A DNA stretch of 25,589 nucleotides, taken from positions 1-25,589 of IMG/VR virus record IMGVR_UViG_3300044841_000004; one strand, 5' to 3'. The position numbers were made by a program, and so were the translations under genes. This stretch comes from a virus. Positions 4,777 to 18,355 of the stretch are shown here, in pieces; position 1 is the stretch's first letter; every line of letters begins with the position of its first letter. The notes beneath the pieces are model-generated. The model was not told the origin of the DNA and did no database searches. It saw only the letters and a program-made list of their open reading frames with translations.

Positions 4777-5139
4777 ATGGCTACCGAATTCACACCGCTC
4801 TTCGACGATGGCGACGAAATCACCCGGGCCACTTCGGGTGCCGTCACTGCCGGACAGGCGCTCATCGTCTCCGGCGATGACACCGTGGCTGCCTCCACCG
4901 CTGCCTCGGCAGCGTTCCTGGGGATCGCTGCATTCGACGCCGCCAGCGGCGCCGACGTGACCGTGCATCTGGGCAAGGTTCACGAACTCACGTCGACCGG
5001 CGCCATCAACGCGGGCGATCCGATCACCTGCGCGGCAGCCGGCGCAGTCGCAGCGTTCAGCGGCACCACCTACTCCACCATCATCGGCAAGGCACTCAAG
5101 GCCGCCGCGTCCAACAAGGTCGTCGTGCGGCTCTTCTGA
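4777..5139 (+). CDS. Capsid decoration protein (DUF2190-like)
   Basis: A 120-residue protein just before the major capsid gene, the usual place for a decoration protein. It is rich in small residues, has no cysteine or membrane segment, and shows alternating beta pattern (TSGAVTAGQALIVSGDD, GKVHELTSTGAINAGDPI). That fits the DUF2190 beta-barrel family, which trimerises on the capsid surface and stabilises the expanded head. The ATG at 4777 lies 2 nt after the protease stop and has GGAAAGGA at 4760-4767. The family call comes from sequence feel and position. Confidence 0.72.
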   Translation: MATEFTPLFDDGDEITRATSGAVTAGQALIVSGDDTVAASTAASAAFLGIAAFDAASGADVTVHLGKVHELTSTGAINAGDPITCAAAGAVAAFSGTTYSTIIGKALKAAASNKVVVRLF

Positions 5140-8067: not shown

Positions 8068-9144
8068 ATGGTTCAACCCCCTACGGGCACAACCCCCGCG
8101 GCTGGTGGATACACCGACGTCGACAACCGACTCCAGGGCGGGCACCGCACCGGCCTGATCGCCGTGCTGTTCCGCGACGCACATGGCGCGTCGACGGACA
8201 TCTCGCCCCACAACTCGAACGGCACCGTCAAGTGGAGCCCGTTCGCTCAGGACGGCCAGCTCCGCGACGACCTGTTCGCGTTCAAGCGCGGCGCTGGCGG
8301 CTTCTGGGTGGTCAACCCGAGCTCGAACGAGGGCTGGCACCTGGCGGGCGCATTCGGCGAGGGCAAGGGCCCGTCCACCAAGCCGAAGATCGACACCGAC
8401 GACCAGGCGATCGAGCAGACGAACTGGCCGTTCGACTCCGTGATCACCAAGCAGGACGAGCCGTTCACGTTCCAGGCGCTGCAGAACCTGCAGCCCGCAA
8501 TCATGCGGCTGCGCAACAACCTTCCGCTCACGGCAGCGAATGGCACCCTGCTCGTCGAGGCACCGGGGCAGCCCGACGCCGGATACAGCCAGCCGCTCGA
8601 AACGGACACGCCGGATCGCCAGTTCCTGCTCTACGGCATCCGCAAGCGCCAGGGCAAGTACCAGTTCGAGGTCGAGGCCTACGACTGCACGCAGCTCAGC
8701 GACATCGGCCAGCGCACGTACGGCAAGAAGGGCACCGCCGCCGAGCTCACCTACAAGCCGATCCCGTCCGGCTTCTACATGGGCGTTCAGGACGGCGAGT
8801 ACAAGCCGATCATCAAGCACACCCACGTCGGCGGCGACGCCTGGGCGGCGCTGTATGGCTCGCCGGTCTCGCAGTACACCGTCACGCTGGGCACGCAGTC
8901 GAGCGGTTCGTTCGCGCTCGGCCTGGACAGCCCGACCGCCGCCCCCGGCATCGCGTTCGGCGCCACGGCAGCCAACGTCAAGACCGCGCTCGTCGCGATC
9001 GATGACGGCTACACCGCCTCCGACTGGACCGTCGCTGGTTCGGCTGGTGGACCGTTCACCGTCACGACCCCCGCGGGTCGCGTGCTGGTCGGTTCGGGTG
9101 CCTCGCTGGGCACTCCGGGCTCGTTCGTGATCGCGCCCGTCTAA
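8068..9144 (+). CDS. Major tail subunit with C-terminal Ig-like domain
   Basis: A 358-residue protein with AAAAGGA upstream of ATG 8068, set apart by 81 nt, longer than most gaps here and consistent with separate, high expression. Residues about 1-260 match the tail-tube fold of actinobacteriophage major tail proteins. From about residue 269 (QYTVTLGTQSSGSFALGLD) to the end, a separate beta domain with AAPGIAFGATAANVKTALVAI and GGPFTVTTPAG looks like the small Ig-like domain often appended to tail and capsid proteins, probably displayed on the tail surface. A strong hairpin follows the stop. Confidence 0.88.
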   Translation: MVQPPTGTTPAAGGYTDVDNRLQGGHRTGLIAVLFRDAHGASTDISPHNSNGTVKWSPFAQDGQLRDDLFAFKRGAGGFWVVNPSSNEGWHLAGAFGEGKGPSTKPKIDTDDQAIEQTNWPFDSVITKQDEPFTFQALQNLQPAIMRLRNNLPLTAANGTLLVEAPGQPDAGYSQPLETDTPDRQFLLYGIRKRQGKYQFEVEAYDCTQLSDIGQRTYGKKGTAAELTYKPIPSGFYMGVQDGEYKPIIKHTHVGGDAWAALYGSPVSQYTVTLGTQSSGSFALGLDSPTAAPGIAFGATAANVKTALVAIDDGYTASDWTVAGSAGGPFTVTTPAGRVLVGSGASLGTPGSFVIAPV

Positions 9145-9156
9145 CCCACTCAAGCC

Positions 9157-9194
9157 CCTGGCGAGTGGGTGTGGGCTAACACCCACTCGCCAGG
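9157..9194 (+). terminator. Perfect 16-bp hairpin after the major tail gene
   Basis: CCTGGCGAGTGGGTGT (9157-9172) pairs without a mismatch with 9179-9194 around the 6-nt loop GGGCTA. It starts 12 nt after the major tail stop. No proper U tract follows (TCACCTTT), so it may be a mycobacterial-type terminator lacking a tail, an attenuator, or an RNA-stability element that lets the major tail protein be made in excess of the chaperones and tape measure downstream. Confidence 0.65.
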
Positions 9195-9200
9195 TCACCT

Positions 9201-9246
9201 TTAGCCCACTTAGCCCACTTAGCCCACCCGAGAGGAATTAGCCCAT
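9201..9246 (+). repeat. Three tandem 9-bp repeats plus a fourth partial copy at the start codon
   Basis: TTAGCCCAC occurs three times without a gap at 9201-9227. TTAGCCCA recurs at 9238-9245, where its final A is the first base of the ATG at 9245. The reverse complement GTGGGCTAA is present at 9171-9179, spanning the loop of the preceding hairpin. Each copy could thus pair with the hairpin loop and open the stem, or block the start region. The ribosome binding site GAGAGGAA (9230-9237) lies between copies three and four. Confidence 0.75.
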
Positions 9247-9763
9247 GTCTCAACCCGTTTCAGATTCAGCCGAGGCCCCGAAGCTGCCGCCCGTCACCGA
9301 TGAGGCGGCCGAAGCGGCGCGCGATCAGCTCGCCGAGTACTACAGCTTCGCGAAGTCGGACGTTATCCCCGCGGGTGGCGAGCTTTTCGAGATCCCCAAC
9401 CCGTCGCTGCTGAGCGAAGATCAGCAGGAACGCTACGACGTGGTGCAGCACCAGCTCCGCAGGTTCGCCCACGAAACGATCGTGATCCGCAACATGATCA
9501 CCAATGAGGTCGTGGTGGATCCGAAGACGGGTGAGCCCCTGACAAATCGGGTTCTGATCGAGCCGCACGAAACTACGGATGGCGAACTGGTCACGCCGCC
9601 GTATTGGTCGCGCGTGCTCAAGGCCGTCATCGGCGACGATGACTACGCCCGGTTCATCGCCAAGGGTGGCCGTCCGAATCAGTTCCGTCTGGTCTGGTCG
9701 AAGATGCAGCGCGAGATGTTGGAGCGCCAGGCCGAAGACTCGAAAAGTAAGGGCAGCGCTTGA
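9245..9763 (+). CDS. Tail assembly chaperone, upstream frame (lambda gpG-like)
   Basis: A 172-residue protein with a good Shine-Dalgarno sequence and ATG at 9245. It lies between major tail protein and tape measure, the fixed position of the two-frame tail assembly chaperone. It is acidic, rich in Glu and Asp at the N-terminus, and ends in a Lys/Ser-rich tail (AEDSKSKGSA) after MQREMLERQ. Chaperones of this kind bind the tape measure protein and recruit tail subunits but are absent from the finished virion. A share of ribosomes is expected to shift frame near the end and continue into the downstream frame. Confidence 0.82.
   Translation: MSQPVSDSAEAPKLPPVTDEAAEAARDQLAEYYSFAKSDVIPAGGELFEIPNPSLLSEDQQERYDVVQHQLRRFAHETIVIRNMITNEVVVDPKTGEPLTNRVLIEPHETTDGELVTPPYWSRVLKAVIGDDDYARFIAKGGRPNQFRLVWSKMQREMLERQAEDSKSKGSA
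9743..9746 (+). promoter_or_regulatory. Candidate +1 programmed frameshift site in the chaperone genes
   Basis: In the upstream frame the codons read TCG AAA AGT. The downstream frame is +1 relative to it. Lys-tRNA on AAA (9743-9745) can slip forward to AAA (9744-9746) with full pairing, placing GTA in the A site, while AGT is an uncommon Ser codon in this G+C-rich genome. The upstream stop follows 15 nt later as TGAC, a context also known to favour +1 slips (RF2). The frame relation is seen; the exact slip site is inferred. Confidence 0.5.
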
Positions 9764-10175
9764 CATCTGGCGGCGCTGGCCGACAGAAATCGAGTTCGAC
9801 CTACTGAACCTCCCCGCGCCGGTCGACATCGCCGACTGGCTACAGGGCACCCGCGACGAGCATGGCCGACTCAAGCTATCGAGTCGTCGCCTGCTCGTCA
9901 TCCTCGAGAAGTTGCCCGACGAGTCGGAGTTCAAGACTCAGGCGATGCGCAACGGCGACTGGACCACCGTCCAGAAGATGATCGCCGAGACGCACAACTT
10001 CGTCGCCAAGCATTATTCGGCGTACCTGCAGGCGCACGGCGTCGAGGGCGAAGACGTGATGTTCACCCCGTTCGTGTCGCCCGTCGAACTGATGGAGACA
10101 GTTCGAGAGGCCGAGGCCGAGATCGAGTTCTCGGATGGCGCGCTCGATACCGTACTCAACCAAATGGGTTGGTAG
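9747..10175 (+). CDS. Tail assembly chaperone, downstream frame made by frameshift (gpT-like)
   Basis: An open frame with no credible start of its own. If read after a slip at 9743-9746, the fusion has 167 + 142 = 309 residues. The segment DIWRRWPTEIEFDLLNLP just after the upstream stop looks like the conserved beginning of chaperone T domains, supporting a junction before 9763. The C-terminal part is helical and acidic (ETVREAEAEIEFSDGALD). It completes 30 nt before the tape measure gene. Most siphoviruses use a -1 shift here, so the +1 (or -2) geometry is less common. Confidence 0.72.
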   Translation, partial: VRAALDIWRRWPTEIEFDLLNLPAPVDIADWLQGTRDEHGRLKLSSRRLLVILEKLPDESEFKTQAMRNGDWTTVQKMIAETHNFVAKHYSAYLQAHGVEGEDVMFTPFVSPVELMETVREAEAEIEFSDGALDTVLNQMGW

Positions 10176-10205: not shown

Positions 10206-13200
10206 GTGGTTGTGCACATTGATGTGGATACACAGCTCGACCACAGTTCGATCAATCGGTCAGCCGATGAGATCAAGCGCGAGATGGAGAAGCGCGGCGA
10301 CAGCGCCGGTCAGGGCTGGACCGACGGGTTCGCCAAAGCCGTCGAGCGCGACACCAATGTGCGCAAGGCCGCCGAGAAGGTTGGTGACTCGCTCGACAAA
10401 CTCACCGCCGCCGAGGCGCGCCGGGCGACGGAGCTGGCGAAGTCGAAGGCCGTCAACGACGCCGTTGCCGCATCCGAGGAGAAGCTGAACAAGCAGCGCT
10501 CACTGGGATTCAGTACGAGCGCTGCCGAGACCGAGAAGGAATTGACCGCTCTGCGCGAGAAGCAGAACGAGATCAACAACCGGCTCGTCATCTCCACCAC
10601 CGAAGTCAGTCGGGCCGAGCGCGACCGCACCCGCTCGATCCGTGAGGCGGGTGACGCCTACCGTCAGATGGGCAATGACGGCGAGTCGGCGATGAGCCGG
10701 CTATCCAAGCTCGGCGACCTGCCAGGCGTTGGCGGTGCGATCAAGTGGAACGTCGGGCTCATCGGCATCGGCACGCTTCCCGCCGCGGCCACGGCGATCA
10801 CCGAAGTGGCTGGAGCCGTGCAGCAGCTGGCGGGGGCGGGTCTCGCGCTGCCGGGCATCTTCGCCGGTATAGCCTCCTCGGTCGGTGTCGGGATGCTGGG
10901 CATGTTCGGCATGTCCGATGCGCTCGACAAGATCAGCAAGGCCGACCTCACGGGCACGCAGGCGTCGGTCGATGCGGCGAACAAGGCGCTGGACGGCCTG
11001 TCACCGGCGGGTGCCGACGCCGTCAAGACCGTGGCGGGCCTCAAGGGCACGTTCATGGACCTGCGGAACATCGCGTCCGAGAACATGCTTGACGGATTCT
11101 CGGGCGGCCTCAAGAGGCTGGTTGCGGCTGACCTGCCTGCGGTCACGCGCGGCATCGATGGCATCTCCCGGGGCATCAATCAGAACCTGACACAGGCGAT
11201 GACGTCGCTGGGCTCGGGGTCGTCGCAGGGGTTTCTGGATCGGATATTCGGCAATACGGGCGATGCTCAGCGGCGGCTAACGGCCGCCATCGACCCAGCC
11301 ATTCACGCCATCGGCACGCTGACGGCCGCGGGCTCGGATTCATTGCCGCGCTTGGCCGATGCCGTCGGCAAGGTGGCTGATCGGTTCGATCGGTTCATCA
11401 CCGCCGCCGATGGCGATGGCCGCCTGAAGAAGTGGATCGACGAGGGGCTCGACGGGTTCACCAGCCTAGGCAACATCGCGCTGAACATCGGCAAGTCGTT
11501 CACCGCGGTCACCGCGGCGGCGGGCGGTGGTGCTGGACTACTCGGCACGCTGGAGTCGGCAACCGGGAAGCTGCAGACGTTCCTGAATTCCAGTGACGGA
11601 CAGTCGAAGCTGAAGCAGTTCTTCGCCGATGGCCGCGACATGTTGGGCCAACTGAAGGACGTCGCGACGACGGCCGGCCCAGTGCTGGCAGGCGTGTTCC
11701 AGGCGGGAGTTAGCGCGGCGAACTCCTACCTGCCCCTCATCAAGCAAGTCCTCGACATCATCAACAAAATCCCGGGCGGCGCCGAGGGAGTTGTCAACGC
11801 GTTCATCGCATGGAAGACCATCTCGGGTATCGGGTCGCTCGCGACATCCTTGACGAACGTCGGCGGCCTGCTTGGCGGACTAGGCCCGAAGGCGACTGCC
11901 GCTGGCGGGGCGATGAGTTCGGCACTGACGCTCGCCGGCCCGATCGCCGCCGCGGTGGCCTTGTCGATCGCGTACGACGGCGTCCTCAACAAGATCAATC
12001 AGATAACCGGAACGACGATCGCGACGGATCTGAACAACCGCGTCGGCCCCGGCAGTGCCCAGTGGTGGATCGACGAGGCACAGGGCAAACATCCCACCGA
12101 GGCGAAGTCGGCTGCACAGAGTGCGCTCGATGCAGCACGGGAAACCGCGCGGCTGAACGGCCCGCCCCCCTTGCTGCCGGGGTCGATCTCGTCGGACACG
12201 TTGGCGCGCAAGGACGACATGACGGGCGTTCCCAAGTCGGTGCTGACGTCGGCTGACGTTCCCGGGGTGAGTTCCTACTCGGCCCCCACCGTCACCTCAG
12301 GTGGCAGCGGCAAGGACAAGACCCCCTTCATCGACCCGTCCAAGTACATGATGGGCGACCCGCTCGCCGGCATGCCCGGCGCGGTGGCCGGTGCCGACCC
12401 CTCCAAGATCTACGACGCCGACAGCAAGGTCATCACCGCTACGCACAACCTCGAGCAAGGCCGCCTCGCGCTGCAGGTACTGGAGGCGAAGGGCAATGCG
12501 ACACAACAGGAATTACTGACCGCGAAGAACAACCTGGTCGAGCAGGAACGCGCGCTCTACAACGCGCAGGCCGACGACATCAAGGCCCGCACGAACCAGA
12601 TGAAGCAGTCGGCTTCCGATCTCGCGTCGATCTTCGCACCGCTCGATCAGGACTTCGGCATATCCAAGGGCATACCCGGCCTCGTCGAGAACCTCACCAG
12701 GATGTTCGGCAACATGGCGCTCGCGGGCGCTATCGGCTCGTCGCCATCACTGCAGACCGCGGCGCTGTCGCTGATGAGCGATGGGTCCGGCAGTCGCGGC
12801 GGCGGCGGTGGCGGATATGGCATGTCGGGCAGCTTCACTGGCATGTCCGGCGGCAGCCCAAACGTCAACGCGATGCTCGCCCTCGCTCAAGGCGCCAGCG
12901 GCAACACCAAGTACGCCGCGGCATCCGATCTCGTCAACGGACTGGCCGACTGCTCGGGCTCGATCTCGGATCTCTACGAGGTCTTGAAGACGGGCACGTC
13001 CACGCCAGCCCGCGATTTCACGACCGCGAATTTCGCCACTCCGGCTGGAGCCGCGGCGTTGGGTTTCCAGCCAGGGTTCATGCCTGGGGCTTTCAACGTC
13101 GGTGTCCATCAGGGCGGCCCCGGCGGCGGCCACATGGCGGCCACGCTGCCGAACAACGTCAACTTCGAGGGTGGCGGCGGGACGGGCGGGGGCGCGCAGT

Positions 13201-13976: not shown

Positions 13977-15697
13977 CCGGCGCCCCGTCCGTCCGCCTCC
14001 CCAGCGGCCCGATCACGCCGCAAGGTGCTTACCACTTGCTCAACGGCAAGATCCCGATGCTCTGGCTCGATGCCCCCGACGGCTCGATCCGCATCGACTT
14101 CATGGGCGGGCTGTCGATGATCGACCGCACACGCCCCGAGTCGGTGCACATCAAAAAGGACGGGCTCAAGGGTCTCATCGCGCCGTGGAAGCAGGTCAAG
14201 CAGAAGGGCGCCACGCAGGACGGCATCACGTTCATCGACGCGCTGAACGATGAGCTCGAGGTGCAGATCACCGCGATAGCCCGAGGTCGCGACGCGCAGC
14301 ACCTGCGCCAGGTGATCCGCTACCTGACTGGCTCTGTCGACCCGAAGAAGACGTCCAAGCTGAACTTCTTCACCCAGGAGATGGGTCACTGGTGGGCTGA
14401 CGTCCGTTGGATGAAGACCTTGCCCGGCCCGATGTCTGGTGCTCAGCAACGCAAGCAGCAGGTCGATCTCATGCTGGAGAGCGACGGGACCGGATGCTGG
14501 CAGTCCGACCCCGACAGTGCGACGTTCAGCTTCGTCTACGACGACGTGGTCGACCTATTCGACACGGAGTACCCCAACGACGCCGGCCCGAACTGGCCGC
14601 TGCACTACTACGACGGCACGGGCGGCGGGCATCCGCGCATCGAGCGTGGCTACCTGACGTGGGTCGACGACCCCGATCACCTGATCCTCACCAGCGGTCT
14701 CAGTGTCGCCATGGGGCCATTCAAGAACTTCTCGACCGTGACCAACAACCAGGTCGTGTCGATGGTGCTCGGCTGGTTCCAAGAGATCACGTTCCCCGAC
14801 GGCGCCGAGAACCACCTGTGGGCGCGCATGGGCCGCAACGTCGACGGCAGCTGGAACGGCAACGGTGTGCGCGCCAGCATCGGGCCGTTCAGCGTGGAGC
14901 TGTCCCGCTTCAACAACTTCGTCGAGACCCCGATGATGCAGTGGTTCAACCTGCCATCGCTACCGGGCGAAAGCTACACGCTCGTCGCAGGATTCGTGGA
15001 CAACCCGCGCCACTTCCAGATCCAGCGCAATGGCCTGCCGATCTGGGATCACGTCGAGGCCGCAACCGGACTGTCGGTGATCAATGCGTCGCATCGCGGC
15101 GTCGGCATCGGGATGCGTGCGGGTGGCGCCATCATCACTCAGGCCACCCCCTCGGCGCTGCTGTCGTTCAGCGCGGGGGACAACGCCACGGTCACCCAGT
15201 CGGGATTCCTCGAGCGGGTCAACGTTGGTGATCAGGGAATGTACGACGACTACACGATTTTCGGGCCCGCGAGCAAGGTGAAGATCTGGAACGGCCCGGA
15301 CTCTGACGACTGGGTGGAGATCGGCCCGCTGCTGCCCAATCAGGTGATGTTCGTGCGCAGTGATCCGCGCGACCGCCAGGTGCAGGATCTGACGTCCGTG
15401 CCGCCAACGCCGCAGGAGCTCACCCAGTTTCAGCAGGCATCGAGTGCGTTCCTCAGTCTCGTCGGGGTCGCAGGTACGCCACTGGCGCAACAGATCGAGT
15501 CCTTCTTCGGGGTTACGCCGCCACAGGGTCCGACCTACTCGCTTCTCAAGGGCCGGTTCAGTGACGCTGCGGCCATCCCGCCGAAGTCGCCCGGTGAGCC
15601 CGTGCGGCCCTATCACGTGAAGGTCTCCATCGAGGGCGGCAACGCATCCTCGACGATCGTCGCGGCAGGTACGCCGCTGCGAAGGCTGCCCTGGTGA
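13973..15697 (+). CDS. Distal tail / minor tail protein (Dit-like)
   Basis: A 574-residue protein whose ATG overlaps the tape measure stop. The first gene after the tape measure normally encodes the distal tail protein, the hub that joins tube and tip. Residues about 35-240 show the beta-rich N-terminal hub domain (MLWLDAPDGSIRIDF, DSATFSFVYDDVVDLFDTEYP). A central lectin-like beta region follows (YLTWVDDPDHLILTSGLSV), ending with a Pro/Thr-rich segment. No enzymatic motif is visible. The end overlaps the next gene in GTGA. Confidence 0.72.
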   Translation: MTGAPSVRLPSGPITPQGAYHLLNGKIPMLWLDAPDGSIRIDFMGGLSMIDRTRPESVHIKKDGLKGLIAPWKQVKQKGATQDGITFIDALNDELEVQITAIARGRDAQHLRQVIRYLTGSVDPKKTSKLNFFTQEMGHWWADVRWMKTLPGPMSGAQQRKQQVDLMLESDGTGCWQSDPDSATFSFVYDDVVDLFDTEYPNDAGPNWPLHYYDGTGGGHPRIERGYLTWVDDPDHLILTSGLSVAMGPFKNFSTVTNNQVVSMVLGWFQEITFPDGAENHLWARMGRNVDGSWNGNGVRASIGPFSVELSRFNNFVETPMMQWFNLPSLPGESYTLVAGFVDNPRHFQIQRNGLPIWDHVEAATGLSVINASHRGVGIGMRAGGAIITQATPSALLSFSAGDNATVTQSGFLERVNVGDQGMYDDYTIFGPASKVKIWNGPDSDDWVEIGPLLPNQVMFVRSDPRDRQVQDLTSVPPTPQELTQFQQASSAFLSLVGVAGTPLAQQIESFFGVTPPQGPTYSLLKGRFSDAAAIPPKSPGEPVRPYHVKVSIEGGNASSTIVAAGTPLRRLPW

Positions 15698-16977
15698 CAT
15701 CCACCGAACTCGCGCGCTGGAATGCGCGCAATACAGCCGCGCGCAGAAGCGAACTCGAGCTGTGGAACGCCGACGTCCAGTCAGGCGATCCGGAGCGCGT
15801 CGCCCGCTCTGCCAAGCGTCTCGCCGACGAGCTGGCCAAGGTCGACCCCGAGTGGATCTTCACCCTGCACGACAAGTGGTGGCGGCCCACGGGGGAGGTC
15901 GGCAAGCACCTCGTCGAGGCGTCGGGCACCGATCCGCGCAACAACGTGCCCTCGGCCACGATGAAGCAGACCGGCACCTCACCGCACATCGGCAAGATGA
16001 TGGAGTGCCGCCGAACGCTGGTGGGCGTCACGGTCGAGACGGCGGGGCTGCGGTTCCCGTTCTACGTCCAGAAGCACAGCTACAAGCTCGACAAGGGCGA
16101 ATACACCTCTACCGCAACACTTCGCGGCATCTGGGACATCCTCAACTACTTGGTCATCATTCCCTCATGGTGGCTTCCGTTGATCGCCCAGCCGTTCTCC
16201 TATGCGGTGTTCTTCGGGCCCATCGTGACGTGCATCGAGAACATGATCACCGAGTGCGCGTTGCGGCTGCAGCTCGGCCTCTGGGAGTTCATCGACAACA
16301 TTGCCTCGCTCAACCCCGACTTCCGCACCTGGTTCGGCACGCTGATCACTGCTGGCGGCATCACGCTCCAGTCGCTCGCCGAGATGGCCAAGACGCCGAT
16401 GTATGTGGTGCGCACCAACCCGTTCCTGGACACGTCGCCACTGTGGGGCAAGACGGTTCGCATGGAGACCTGCGGGACGATCATCACCGAGGCCACGCGG
16501 CCGTACGGAGTCATCGTCGAGGTCGACCTCTGGAAAGAGGGCGACGCGCAGCCCGACGCCTGGGCCAACCTGACCAAGCCCACCTATGTCATTCGGGTGA
16601 AGGACAGAAGCCAGATTGAGGGTCCGACGAAAACCGTTCTGGACTCAGCGATCCGGACGACGGTCGACCTGTTCGGCCAACTGTTCGGTCAGGTCGACGG
16701 GATCCTCGGCCAGGCACAGGGCATGGAGGGCGTGTTCGTCGCGCCGGTCATCGGCCTGAACTTCGTCGCTCCGTGGGTGATGCTCGAGTTACCCGAGCCC
16801 GGCAACGATGGCGGCCTGCTCACGTGCGAGGTCATCGACCACACGCCCACCGGTTGGCGCCACATCATCGGCGGAAAATCTCCGAAGTGGTTGAACGACT
16901 TGATAAATGCGTTCTTCTCCTGGGTCATCGACTCAGCCATGATAGTCATAGGGTTTGTGGGTATTCCCTCGAATGCC
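15694..16977 (+). CDS. Minor tail protein, ReqiPepy6 gp37-like, 5' part (frame interrupted)
   Basis: From GTG 15694, this frame encodes 428 residues up to the GCC codon at 16975-16977. The region from about 115 (MECRRTLVGVTVETAG) through ILNYLVIIPSWWLPLIAQPF and ITECALRLQLGLWEFIDN is the signature of the Siphovirus ReqiPepy6 gp37-like family, a baseplate or tail-tip protein always found right after the distal tail gene in these phages. Beyond 16977 the frame enters a perfect palindrome and then stays open by chance to 18096, but that sequence is a shadow of the following genes. The natural C-terminus lies in the +1 frame from 17021. Whether a full protein is made depends on how ribosomes cross the palindrome. 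Confidence 0.83.
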
Positions 16978-17018
16978 GGTGCCCCCCCGGGCAACTGGGG
17001 GGGCACCGGCATTCGAGG
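16967..17018. repeat. Perfect 22-bp stem, 8-nt loop palindrome interrupting the minor tail gene
   Basis: Bases 16967-16988 (CCTCGAATGCC, then GGTGCCCCCCC) pair without a mismatch with 16997-17018 around GGGCAACT. The stem includes a C7:G7 tract. Identical GCC codons stand at 16975-16977, inside the left arm, and at 17018-17020. Dropping 16978-17020 (43 nt) joins the two gene parts in frame as GIPSNA-LGILDG. A +1 slip on CCC-C inside the C7 tract (16982-16988) also restores frame with 14 extra residues. It may be a bypass element, a frameshift stimulator, a small palindromic insertion, or an amplification fold-back artefact. I see no second copy in the window. Confidence 0.9.
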
Positions 17019-17020
17019 CC

Positions 17021-17485
17021 CTTGGCATTTTGGACGGTTTTCTGAACGACGCCTTCCTCGCATTTCAGCAGCTGGATCTGTTCAACCGCCGTGTCGACGT
17101 TGGCGTCTACCACCCGGCGATCACCCAGTTCCATGCAACCGGCGCACCCCCGTACAACATCCAGGCGCTGTTCACCTTCATCAAGGTGATCTGGGAGTCA
17201 CGCGGCTGGACCTCAGTAACCGCAACGTTCCGAAACGGCGAAATCTACACGCTCGGAAAAGATTTCTTCAAGGGGATGCTCTTCTCGATCGTCTACATGG
17301 GTCGCACCCGGATGGTCACCGATTACGTCGAGCTCATCATGTGGCGGATCAACGCCAACGAGCGCGAAATTCTCGTCCAGATCGGCGACGGCCAGGCCGA
17401 CGAGCCGCCGATCGCGAAGCACGAACGTCTACTCACCGCAGCCATGGAGGGCATCAATGTTCTTACCCTCGCCCCGAATTCGTAG
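17021..17485 (+). CDS. Minor tail protein, ReqiPepy6 gp37-like, 3' part (+1 frame)
   Basis: This segment encodes 154 residues beginning LGILDGFLNDAFLAFQQLD. It then runs through NRRVDVGVYHPAITQF, PYNIQALFTFIKVIWESRGW and ATFRNGEIYTLGKDFF, which I recognise as the C-terminal part of the same minor tail family, normally continuous with the 5' part. Joined parts give 582 residues, the usual size. Independent starts are poor: TTG 16955 and ATG 16973 lie in or before the stem, and TTG 17030 has only GAGG (17015-17018), hidden in the stem. Intact, conserved-looking coding sequence after the break argues that the gene is still expressed or was broken very recently. Confidence 0.78.
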   Translation, partial: LGILDGFLNDAFLAFQQLDLFNRRVDVGVYHPAITQFHATGAPPYNIQALFTFIKVIWESRGWTSVTATFRNGEIYTLGKDFFKGMLFSIVYMGRTRMVTDYVELIMWRINANEREILVQIGDGQADEPPIAKHERLLTAAMEGINVLTLAPNS

Positions 17486-17494
17486 GGAGATCTA

Positions 17495-18355
17495 GTGCCC
17501 ACGTTTGGAATGACCACGTTCGACGAGACCGGCCAGGAGTGGTTCACCTGGGACTTCAAGGCCAAGTTCAAGGTCCCGTGGGACCCGAACAACCCCGTGA
17601 TGATCCTGTGCGCGCCCCCCGGTGGTGTCGGACATGCCAACTTCCCCGCGATGGTCAAGGGCGACAACGGATTGACTCCGCTACTGCAGGAGGACGCCGA
17701 GGTCACCGAGCTCGAGTGGAACGACGCGACCTCGGTGTCGAGCCAGTGGGTCATGGTGTCGCCGGGGTCACTGTTGGTGCCGCCGCTGTACAAGGAAGTC
17801 AAGACGATCCGCAAGGGCAAGCCGGGCATCGACGGGACGAGCGTGCTCAACCCCGCGTCGTTCGGCACGCCGCTGTACAAGTGGATGCTCCAGGTCAACG
17901 CCGCGACCGACGAGTTCGAGTACGTGCCGCAGAAGGTCGGCGGGATGCACTGGCCCATCACCGCTGCCACCGCTGCGCCGCCCGGACAGACCGCGGGCTT
18001 CACGCTCCACACCATCTCCATCCCGGCGAACACCTATCCGTTCGACTGGCGGCCGGAGGTGTCGGGCTCCACGATCGTGACGGGCTCGTCGGCTGATGTG
18101 GTGGTCGATCTCGTCGCCCGCCTGAACGGCACCAGCGGCCCGGTCGTGGGACGTTGCCCTGGCGTCGGTGGCATCACCGATCGCCTGATCCTGGCGTCTG
18201 GCCCCGATGGTGGCGCCCTCAGTGCCGACGTGACAGTGGCGGCGAACGCGGCGGCCGTGCTCTACCTACGCAGCGAGAAGCAAGGCGGCGCAGCCACATA
18301 CGGGACCAGCGCCGCCGCCACCCGCTTCAGCTTCGTCGCGGTGCCAGTCCCGTAA
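17495..18355 (+). CDS. Minor tail protein
   Basis: A 286-residue protein from GTG 17495 with AGGGAG at 17485-17490. The N-terminal part (MTTFDETGQEWFTWDFKA, then PWDPNNPVMILCAPPGG) and the middle segment (LLVPPLYKEVKTIRKGKPG) are typical of the minor tail protein that follows the gp37-like gene in mycobacteriophages. The C-terminal 110 residues form a separate beta-rich domain (PFDWRPEVSGSTIVTG to VLYLRSEKQ), probably a jelly-roll displayed at the tail tip. No enzyme motif is seen. The stop overlaps the next ATG by one base. Confidence 0.75.
   Translation: MPTFGMTTFDETGQEWFTWDFKAKFKVPWDPNNPVMILCAPPGGVGHANFPAMVKGDNGLTPLLQEDAEVTELEWNDATSVSSQWVMVSPGSLLVPPLYKEVKTIRKGKPGIDGTSVLNPASFGTPLYKWMLQVNAATDEFEYVPQKVGGMHWPITAATAAPPGQTAGFTLHTISIPANTYPFDWRPEVSGSTIVTGSSADVVVDLVARLNGTSGPVVGRCPGVGGITDRLILASGPDGGALSADVTVAANAAAVLYLRSEKQGGAATYGTSAAATRFSFVAVPVP

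Follow-up and report, generated by a model that had tools for sequence, protein, structure and literature searches.

A hairpin whose loop is complementary to the next gene's start: a probable, apparently undescribed RNA control element at the tail protein-chaperone boundary of actinobacterial phages

At the boundary between the major tail protein (MTP) gene and the tail assembly chaperone (TAC) gene, many actinobacterial phages carry what is probably an RNA control element, apparently undescribed. The element consists of a hairpin just past the MTP stop codon, whose loop is complementary to several short copies in the leader of the chaperone gene and to a further copy at its start codon. Base pairing between loop and leader is well supported by sequence comparison across phages, and the element probably acts in cis, through a loop-to-start pseudoknot that would repress or tune TAC translation while the upstream copies compete for the loop. 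The tail of a tailed phage takes very many tail tube subunits but few chaperones, and both are expressed from one late operon. Thousands of actinobacteriophages have been sequenced, and the literature searched contained no device for the step from MTP to chaperone in these phages; the element would provide a direct and widespread handle on the MTP:chaperone ratio. No description of the element turned up in searches of an open-access library, and an earlier description in subscription papers is possible.

The window, which is the whole stretch of DNA analysed (25,589 nucleotides), is a 25.6-kb IMG/VR virus record, the MTP relatives of which are mostly mycobacteriophages. The hairpin, three tandem copies of TTAGCCCAC and a partial copy at the ATG, as described in an earlier note on this DNA, were all recovered at their positions from the sequence and a repeat search (Table 1), and the PHROG matches bear out their placement between MTP and TAC. 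The tape measure gene is next after TAC. According to the repeat search, GTGGGCTAA is the exact reverse complement of all three TTAGCCCAC repeats. The copy at the chaperone start codon reads TTAGCCCATG, and TTAGCCCA at 9238-9245 runs into the ATG (9245-9247), giving three upstream copies versus one start copy. In the 25.6-kb window, TTAGCCCA occurs 5 times, always inside the element, while shuffles give an expectation of 0.18 (maximum of 2 in 100). Stoperator or operator repeats are not matched by this pattern, as TTAGCCCA is confined to the element and not spread over the window. When the window's 23 candidate starts are compared, the start-proximal site is the loop's top pairing partner, and the RNA fold of 9140-9262 has a z of -2.99 relative to shuffles.

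Table 1. Positions of the element and its neighbouring genes in the window.
Feature	Position	Strand	Remarks
MTP gene, upstream neighbour	8068..9144	+	PHROG 476, E 9.9e-48
Hairpin 5' arm (S1)	9157..9172	+	12 nt past MTP stop; perfect 16-bp inverted repeat
Pairing segment GTGGGCTAA (S2, 5' strand)	9171..9179	+	loop plus closing nucleotides
Loop GGGCTA	9173-9178		inside hairpin 9157-9194
Hairpin 3' arm	9179..9194	+	16 bp, 100% complementary to 5' arm
Upstream site 1 TTAGCCCAC	9201..9209	+	
Upstream site 2 TTAGCCCAC	9210..9218	+	
Upstream site 3 TTAGCCCAC	9219..9227	+	
Likely Shine-Dalgarno GAGAGGA of the chaperone gene	9230..9236	+	inferred from sequence and spacing to ATG
Start-proximal site TTAGCCCA	9238..9245	+	occupies the spacer from Shine-Dalgarno to ATG
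TAC gene, putative regulated gene	9245..9763	+	PHROG 621, E 2.2e-35; PHROG 978
Second chaperone frame	9579-10175		overlaps TAC gene

In the window and the two complete genomes screened, the combination of a hairpin and repeated loop sites is specific to this boundary. The window contains 8 hairpins of comparable size on both strands, and only the one at 9157-9194 has at least two complementary downstream sites. When both strands of the complete Hedwig and BigNuz genomes and the window were considered together, at least two loop sites were found for 3 of 66 hairpins only, all located at the MTP-TAC boundary. Hairpins following the capsid gene, present in 4 of 15 major capsid loci, include none with two loop sites, and the background rate in capsid loci is 2/42. 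Elsewhere in the window, a perfect 22-bp inverted repeat with an 8-nt spacer (16967-17018) lies within the long minor tail protein frame 15694-18096, right at the point (around residue 430) up to which the frame matches known minor tail proteins; its loop is without matching sites downstream.

Known classes of elements were also compared. In 36 positives, the first 12 nt behind the hairpin contain no TTTT, and a scan of window positions 8900-9500 for intrinsic terminators yielded no terminator-like site; the absence of a U-tract after the hairpin argues against a simple intrinsic terminator. In 12 loci, no Rfam family scored above its gathering score, the one hit being a chance miRNA-type match with an E of 0.96. 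The SAS/ESAS consensus GGGATAGGAGCCC had 0 matches in the window at up to 2 mismatches.

The strongest evidence for pairing comes from a comparison of own and foreign leaders. For an unbiased sample, the MTP families PHROG 476, 117 and 10909 and the MTP of the window served as queries against the family, order and class to which a Mycobacterium genome belongs. Every hairpin with at least 10 net pairs, a loop of 5-21 nt and a distance of at most 70 nt from the MTP stop was kept regardless of loop complementarity, resulting in 40 post-MTP hairpins. The pairing of every loop was then computed for its own leader and for those of the other 39. Own pairing summed to -548 kcal/mol, versus -385 (sd 17) for permuted leaders (z -9.7; 0 of 200,000 permutations did as well; n=40), in a test that corrects only partly for shared ancestry. 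For 23 of the 40 hairpins the own leader was among the top 3 of 40, where chance gives 3. Loops sharing no 6-mer (n=25) still gave an own-versus-foreign z of -6.3, and the diversity of the loops is illustrated by GTGGTGAGCG, GCTGGTCCCGGC, TGCCGTGC and TGATGGGT. Common descent of one sequence is a poor explanation, since the letters are unrelated in most pairs.

The same covariation is visible when individual phages are compared. Among the loci found in viral contigs through their MTP gene, a hairpin follows right after the MTP stop in nearly all, and in these hairpin-bearing loci the loop complement is always present downstream with altered letters: GGGCTAA/TTAGCCC in the window, GGGCTGA/TCAGCCC in loci L003 and L011, and GGCTGGA/TCCAGCC in L007-L009. 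The remaining hairpins in the viral-contig MTP loci have no loop match of such kind. In phage regions fetched for an MTP or TAC hit, the element is present in 13 of 16, namely in Che8 (F1), Cornie, Charlie (N), BigNuz, Tortellini, Malithi (P), three Mycobacterium abscessus prophages, LittleE and KashFlow (J), and the Gordonia phages Hedwig and Doggs. From one group to the next the pairing letters show no relation, being CGGCTG/CAGCCG in Charlie, GTGCAGC/GCTGCAC in Hedwig and TGGTGTGGTCGG/CCGACCACACCA in BigNuz and Tortellini. TM4 and Kampy also carry the element, again with different letters, and its anatomy is found with quite different letters in prophages across Actinomycetes. These covarying letters, kept in relatives, uphold the earlier proposal of a real RNA element with a loop complementary to the repeats and the next start. 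Because complementarity alone is conserved, sequence-based RNA libraries miss the element, and covariation between a loop and a distal site could be used for finding more elements of this type.

The letters of the sites favour RNA pairing, and their layout is pseudoknot-like. In copies with a single mismatch, 8 of 9 changes are C>T or A>G, by which a G-U pair is retained, compared with 14% in foreign comparisons, and this favours RNA pairing over binding of a DNA-binding protein. The paired segment lies toward the 3' side of the loop (L1>L2) in 17 of 19 non-tied cases among 22 representatives, with unpaired bases left over 5' of it, the arrangement that an H-type pseudoknot calls for. The first repeat often starts only 4-14 nt past a stem of 12-18 bp, which is sterically tight. 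As in H-type pseudoknots, a loop segment has its complement in a single-stranded region beyond the hairpin, and this complementarity is kept through covariation with tolerance of G-U pairs. According to the earlier note, the hairpin and the loop-repeat pairing exclude each other or form a kissing structure. Exclusion would apply to the copies, which would compete for one loop, and not to the hairpin itself: as the loop holds the paired segment, no more than one or two closing pairs would have to open.

The position of the copies relative to the chaperone start suggests a role in translation initiation. Restricted to the 21 nt from -18 to +3 of the start codon, the test gave an own-versus-foreign z of -8.7 for all 40 hairpins. 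In 36 elements, which were partly selected for complementarity, predicted own pairing of the start region averaged -14.7 kcal/mol versus -8.6 kcal/mol for foreign pairing, and the upstream part, from the hairpin to the Shine-Dalgarno, had a z of -14.0 with an own mean of -17.0 kcal/mol. The leader is 35-65 nt long and contains 1-3 additional copies between hairpin and Shine-Dalgarno. The start copy is usually located in the spacer between Shine-Dalgarno and start codon, often touching the ATG (L201, L214, L215, L232, L241, L244, L067, the window and Sbash), and examples of the letters preceding the ATG are GACCCGCGC, GAACCCGCAC, CCCATC and GCCGGGACC. In TM4, L065, L248 and prophiCCUG48898T-1, the copy overlaps or abuts the Shine-Dalgarno. 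Weak start-proximal matches were observed in L195, L243, Hedwig gp14 and L063, while LittleE and L247 have upstream sites and no start-proximal match. In Gordonia phage Hedwig a gene has been inserted, yet a copy is present between the Shine-Dalgarno and the ATG of the TAC gene (gp15), approximately 370 nt downstream.

Taken together, a mechanism can be proposed in which the stable hairpin would fold on the late mRNA just past the MTP stop codon. Pairing of the loop with an upstream copy (9201-9227 in the window) would leave the ribosome binding site free, while pairing with the start copy (9238-9245) would block binding of the 30S subunit to TAC. Both pairings would be H-type pseudoknots in which most of the stem is retained. 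The upstream copies would vie for the single loop and thereby set how often the TAC start is free, and the outcome would be a low, set level of chaperone translation, with the tail tube protein next to it being translated at a very high level. Tuning of the strength by the number of copies, as proposed in the earlier note, is a further possibility. We infer the pairing in vivo, the repression and the competing role of the upstream copies from the arrangement of the sites, and likewise the direction and the size of the effect on TAC.

The element would work like known pseudoknots at ribosome binding sites; it differs in being defined by complementarity alone and in having several target copies. 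In the rep leader of plasmid ColIb-P9/IncB, too, a hairpin loop binds a distant complementary stretch close to the following gene's Shine-Dalgarno, but this pseudoknot has a single site, activates, and needs leader peptide translation and an antisense RNA. In the timP mRNA of a type I toxin-antitoxin system, a pseudoknot and mutually exclusive mRNA conformations govern translation initiation (PMC11228461). That mRNA encodes a bacterial toxin, is regulated by an antisense RNA and is activated by its pseudoknot (PMC11228461), whereas the present element lies in a phage tail operon and has repeated sites, one of them at the start codon itself. The gene 32 leader of phages T4, T2 and RB69 carries an mRNA pseudoknot upstream of the ribosome binding site, with short repeats in between; however, it is bound by gp32 for autoregulation, is itself unpaired with the start region and is conserved in sequence in close relatives only (PMC3014915). 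The SAS and ESAS of cluster K mycobacteriophages are likewise short sequences at translation starts of actinobacteriophages, the ESAS with inverted repeats, but SAS have a conserved 13-bp consensus with many copies genome-wide (PMC3203893), whereas the copies of the present element belong to a single gene boundary, and it is their complementarity to the loop that defines them. In cluster O phages, too, the major tail gene is directly followed by a GC-rich hairpin, which is a stem-loop terminator with a T-rich tail (5'-TTTCT) (PMC4351075), in contrast to the present element, which is without a U-tract and has a loop predicted to pair with the next start.

The main rival to repression is activation, as in the timP mRNA, where the pseudoknot is required for translation initiation (PMC11228461). 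The pseudoknot would then aid TAC translation, either by bringing the MTP stop near the TAC start or by keeping the leader open, leading to reinitiation. The upstream copies near the hairpin are matched as strongly as the start copy (own means of -17.0 and -14.7 kcal/mol), and in L003, L006 and prophiCCUG48898T-1 the nearest copy ends just 5' of the Shine-Dalgarno, as could be expected from activation. However, in many phages the copies lie exactly in the spacer between Shine-Dalgarno and ATG or over the Shine-Dalgarno (TM4, L065, L248), positions at which pairing would be expected to impede the 30S subunit. Activation is considered rather unlikely.

Regulation could also take place at the RNA level, with the hairpin and the C-rich leader forming a processing site, a 3' end or a Rho entry site that is hidden or exposed by loop pairing, so that MTP mRNA outlives the downstream mRNA. 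The leader is indeed rich in C and poor in G (46% C, 15% G), and leaders of hairpins without loop sites are similarly C-rich. In Kampy, a carrier of the element, genes 14 to 22 form the most highly expressed stretch in RNA-seq data, gene 22 being the MTP gene (PMC4626039), and part of the effect may thus be exerted at the RNA level. As the full explanation this is unlikely, as it does not account for a copy between Shine-Dalgarno and ATG, found even approximately 370 nt away in Hedwig, and the scan of 8900-9500 gave no intrinsic terminator.

Pairing in trans is a third reading: the abundant MTP mRNA would release its 3' end as a small RNA, and the loop of this RNA would bind to copies on other late mRNAs. 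Simultaneous binding of several copies would need several hairpins, and in Hedwig copies are present far downstream at the starts of gp15 (TAC) and gp17; the remaining evidence fits pairing in cis equally well, and this reading is quite improbable. The Hedwig copies at gp15 and gp17 also suggest a broader proposal, itself unlikely, that the hairpin acts in addition as a trans-acting small RNA on several late starts and belongs to a sequence-free family common to actinobacterial siphophages. If trans action were true, chaperone output would depend on the level of tail tube mRNA. Copies of the Hedwig loop complement GCTGCACA lie far from the hairpin at the starts of gp17 (10522-10531, where the copy is given as GGGAAGCTGCACATG) and gp54 (35628-35641); the gp17 and gp54 copies are a hint of action on several genes, or are due to chance. 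In BigNuz, GACCACACCACACC (46821-46847) precedes the start of gp77, and of the 79 starts in this genome it matches the loop of the MTP hairpin best.

The direct and inverted copies could also be sites for a DNA-binding protein, with the hairpin being incidental, and an altered specificity of such a protein would likewise change all copies together. This is very improbable: the G-U compatible variants (8 of 9) and the position on the 3' side of the loop are hard to square with a protein reading double-stranded repeats, the loop copy is always antisense, the copies go with one particular gene's start codon and the stems are base-paired in all phages. A chance or low-complexity effect of C-rich leaders is hardly credible, as it is refuted by the own-versus-foreign permutation tests across phages, even though leader shuffles in the window alone give a p of approximately 0.06, in a weak test in which the repeats survive shuffling.

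Several relatives are without the element. Among the 16 phage regions these are Goku and Firecracker, in which the post-MTP hairpins end in T-rich stretches, and StAugustine, which has no TAC after MTP; in Firecracker, a leftward gene block lies between MTP and TAC. Approximately 40% of the post-MTP hairpins in the unbiased sample have no loop sites, indicating that the element is dispensable in some lineages. The earlier note had held that relatives keeping the hairpin while losing complementarity would count against the element; close relatives keep both, and a hairpin without complementarity occurs only outside this lineage, in L061, L062, L069 and L079, whose MTP belongs to PHROG 3884. A guess that the hairpins of these four loci follow capsid genes proved wrong, as the upstream genes are true MTP genes of another family. 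The presence of hairpins without loop sites at some PHROG 3884 MTP-TAC boundaries suggests that the hairpin predates loop pairing or is the more general feature. A scan of viral contigs with the TAC protein gave no matches, and an 18-mer tandem-repeat scan gave 16 stretches with two adjacent TTAGCCCAC copies (L013-L028) that were set aside, 15 of them having common flanking sequence without the hairpin anatomy and being unrelated to the element. Lambda and Giles have no such element at the region examined. The Giles record (L184) does contain an annotated 'pseudoknot RNA' at 4908-4975, which overlaps the start of gp17, the gene for the tail assembly chaperone, and contains a 17-bp hairpin inside this gene, a structure different from that of the post-MTP element.
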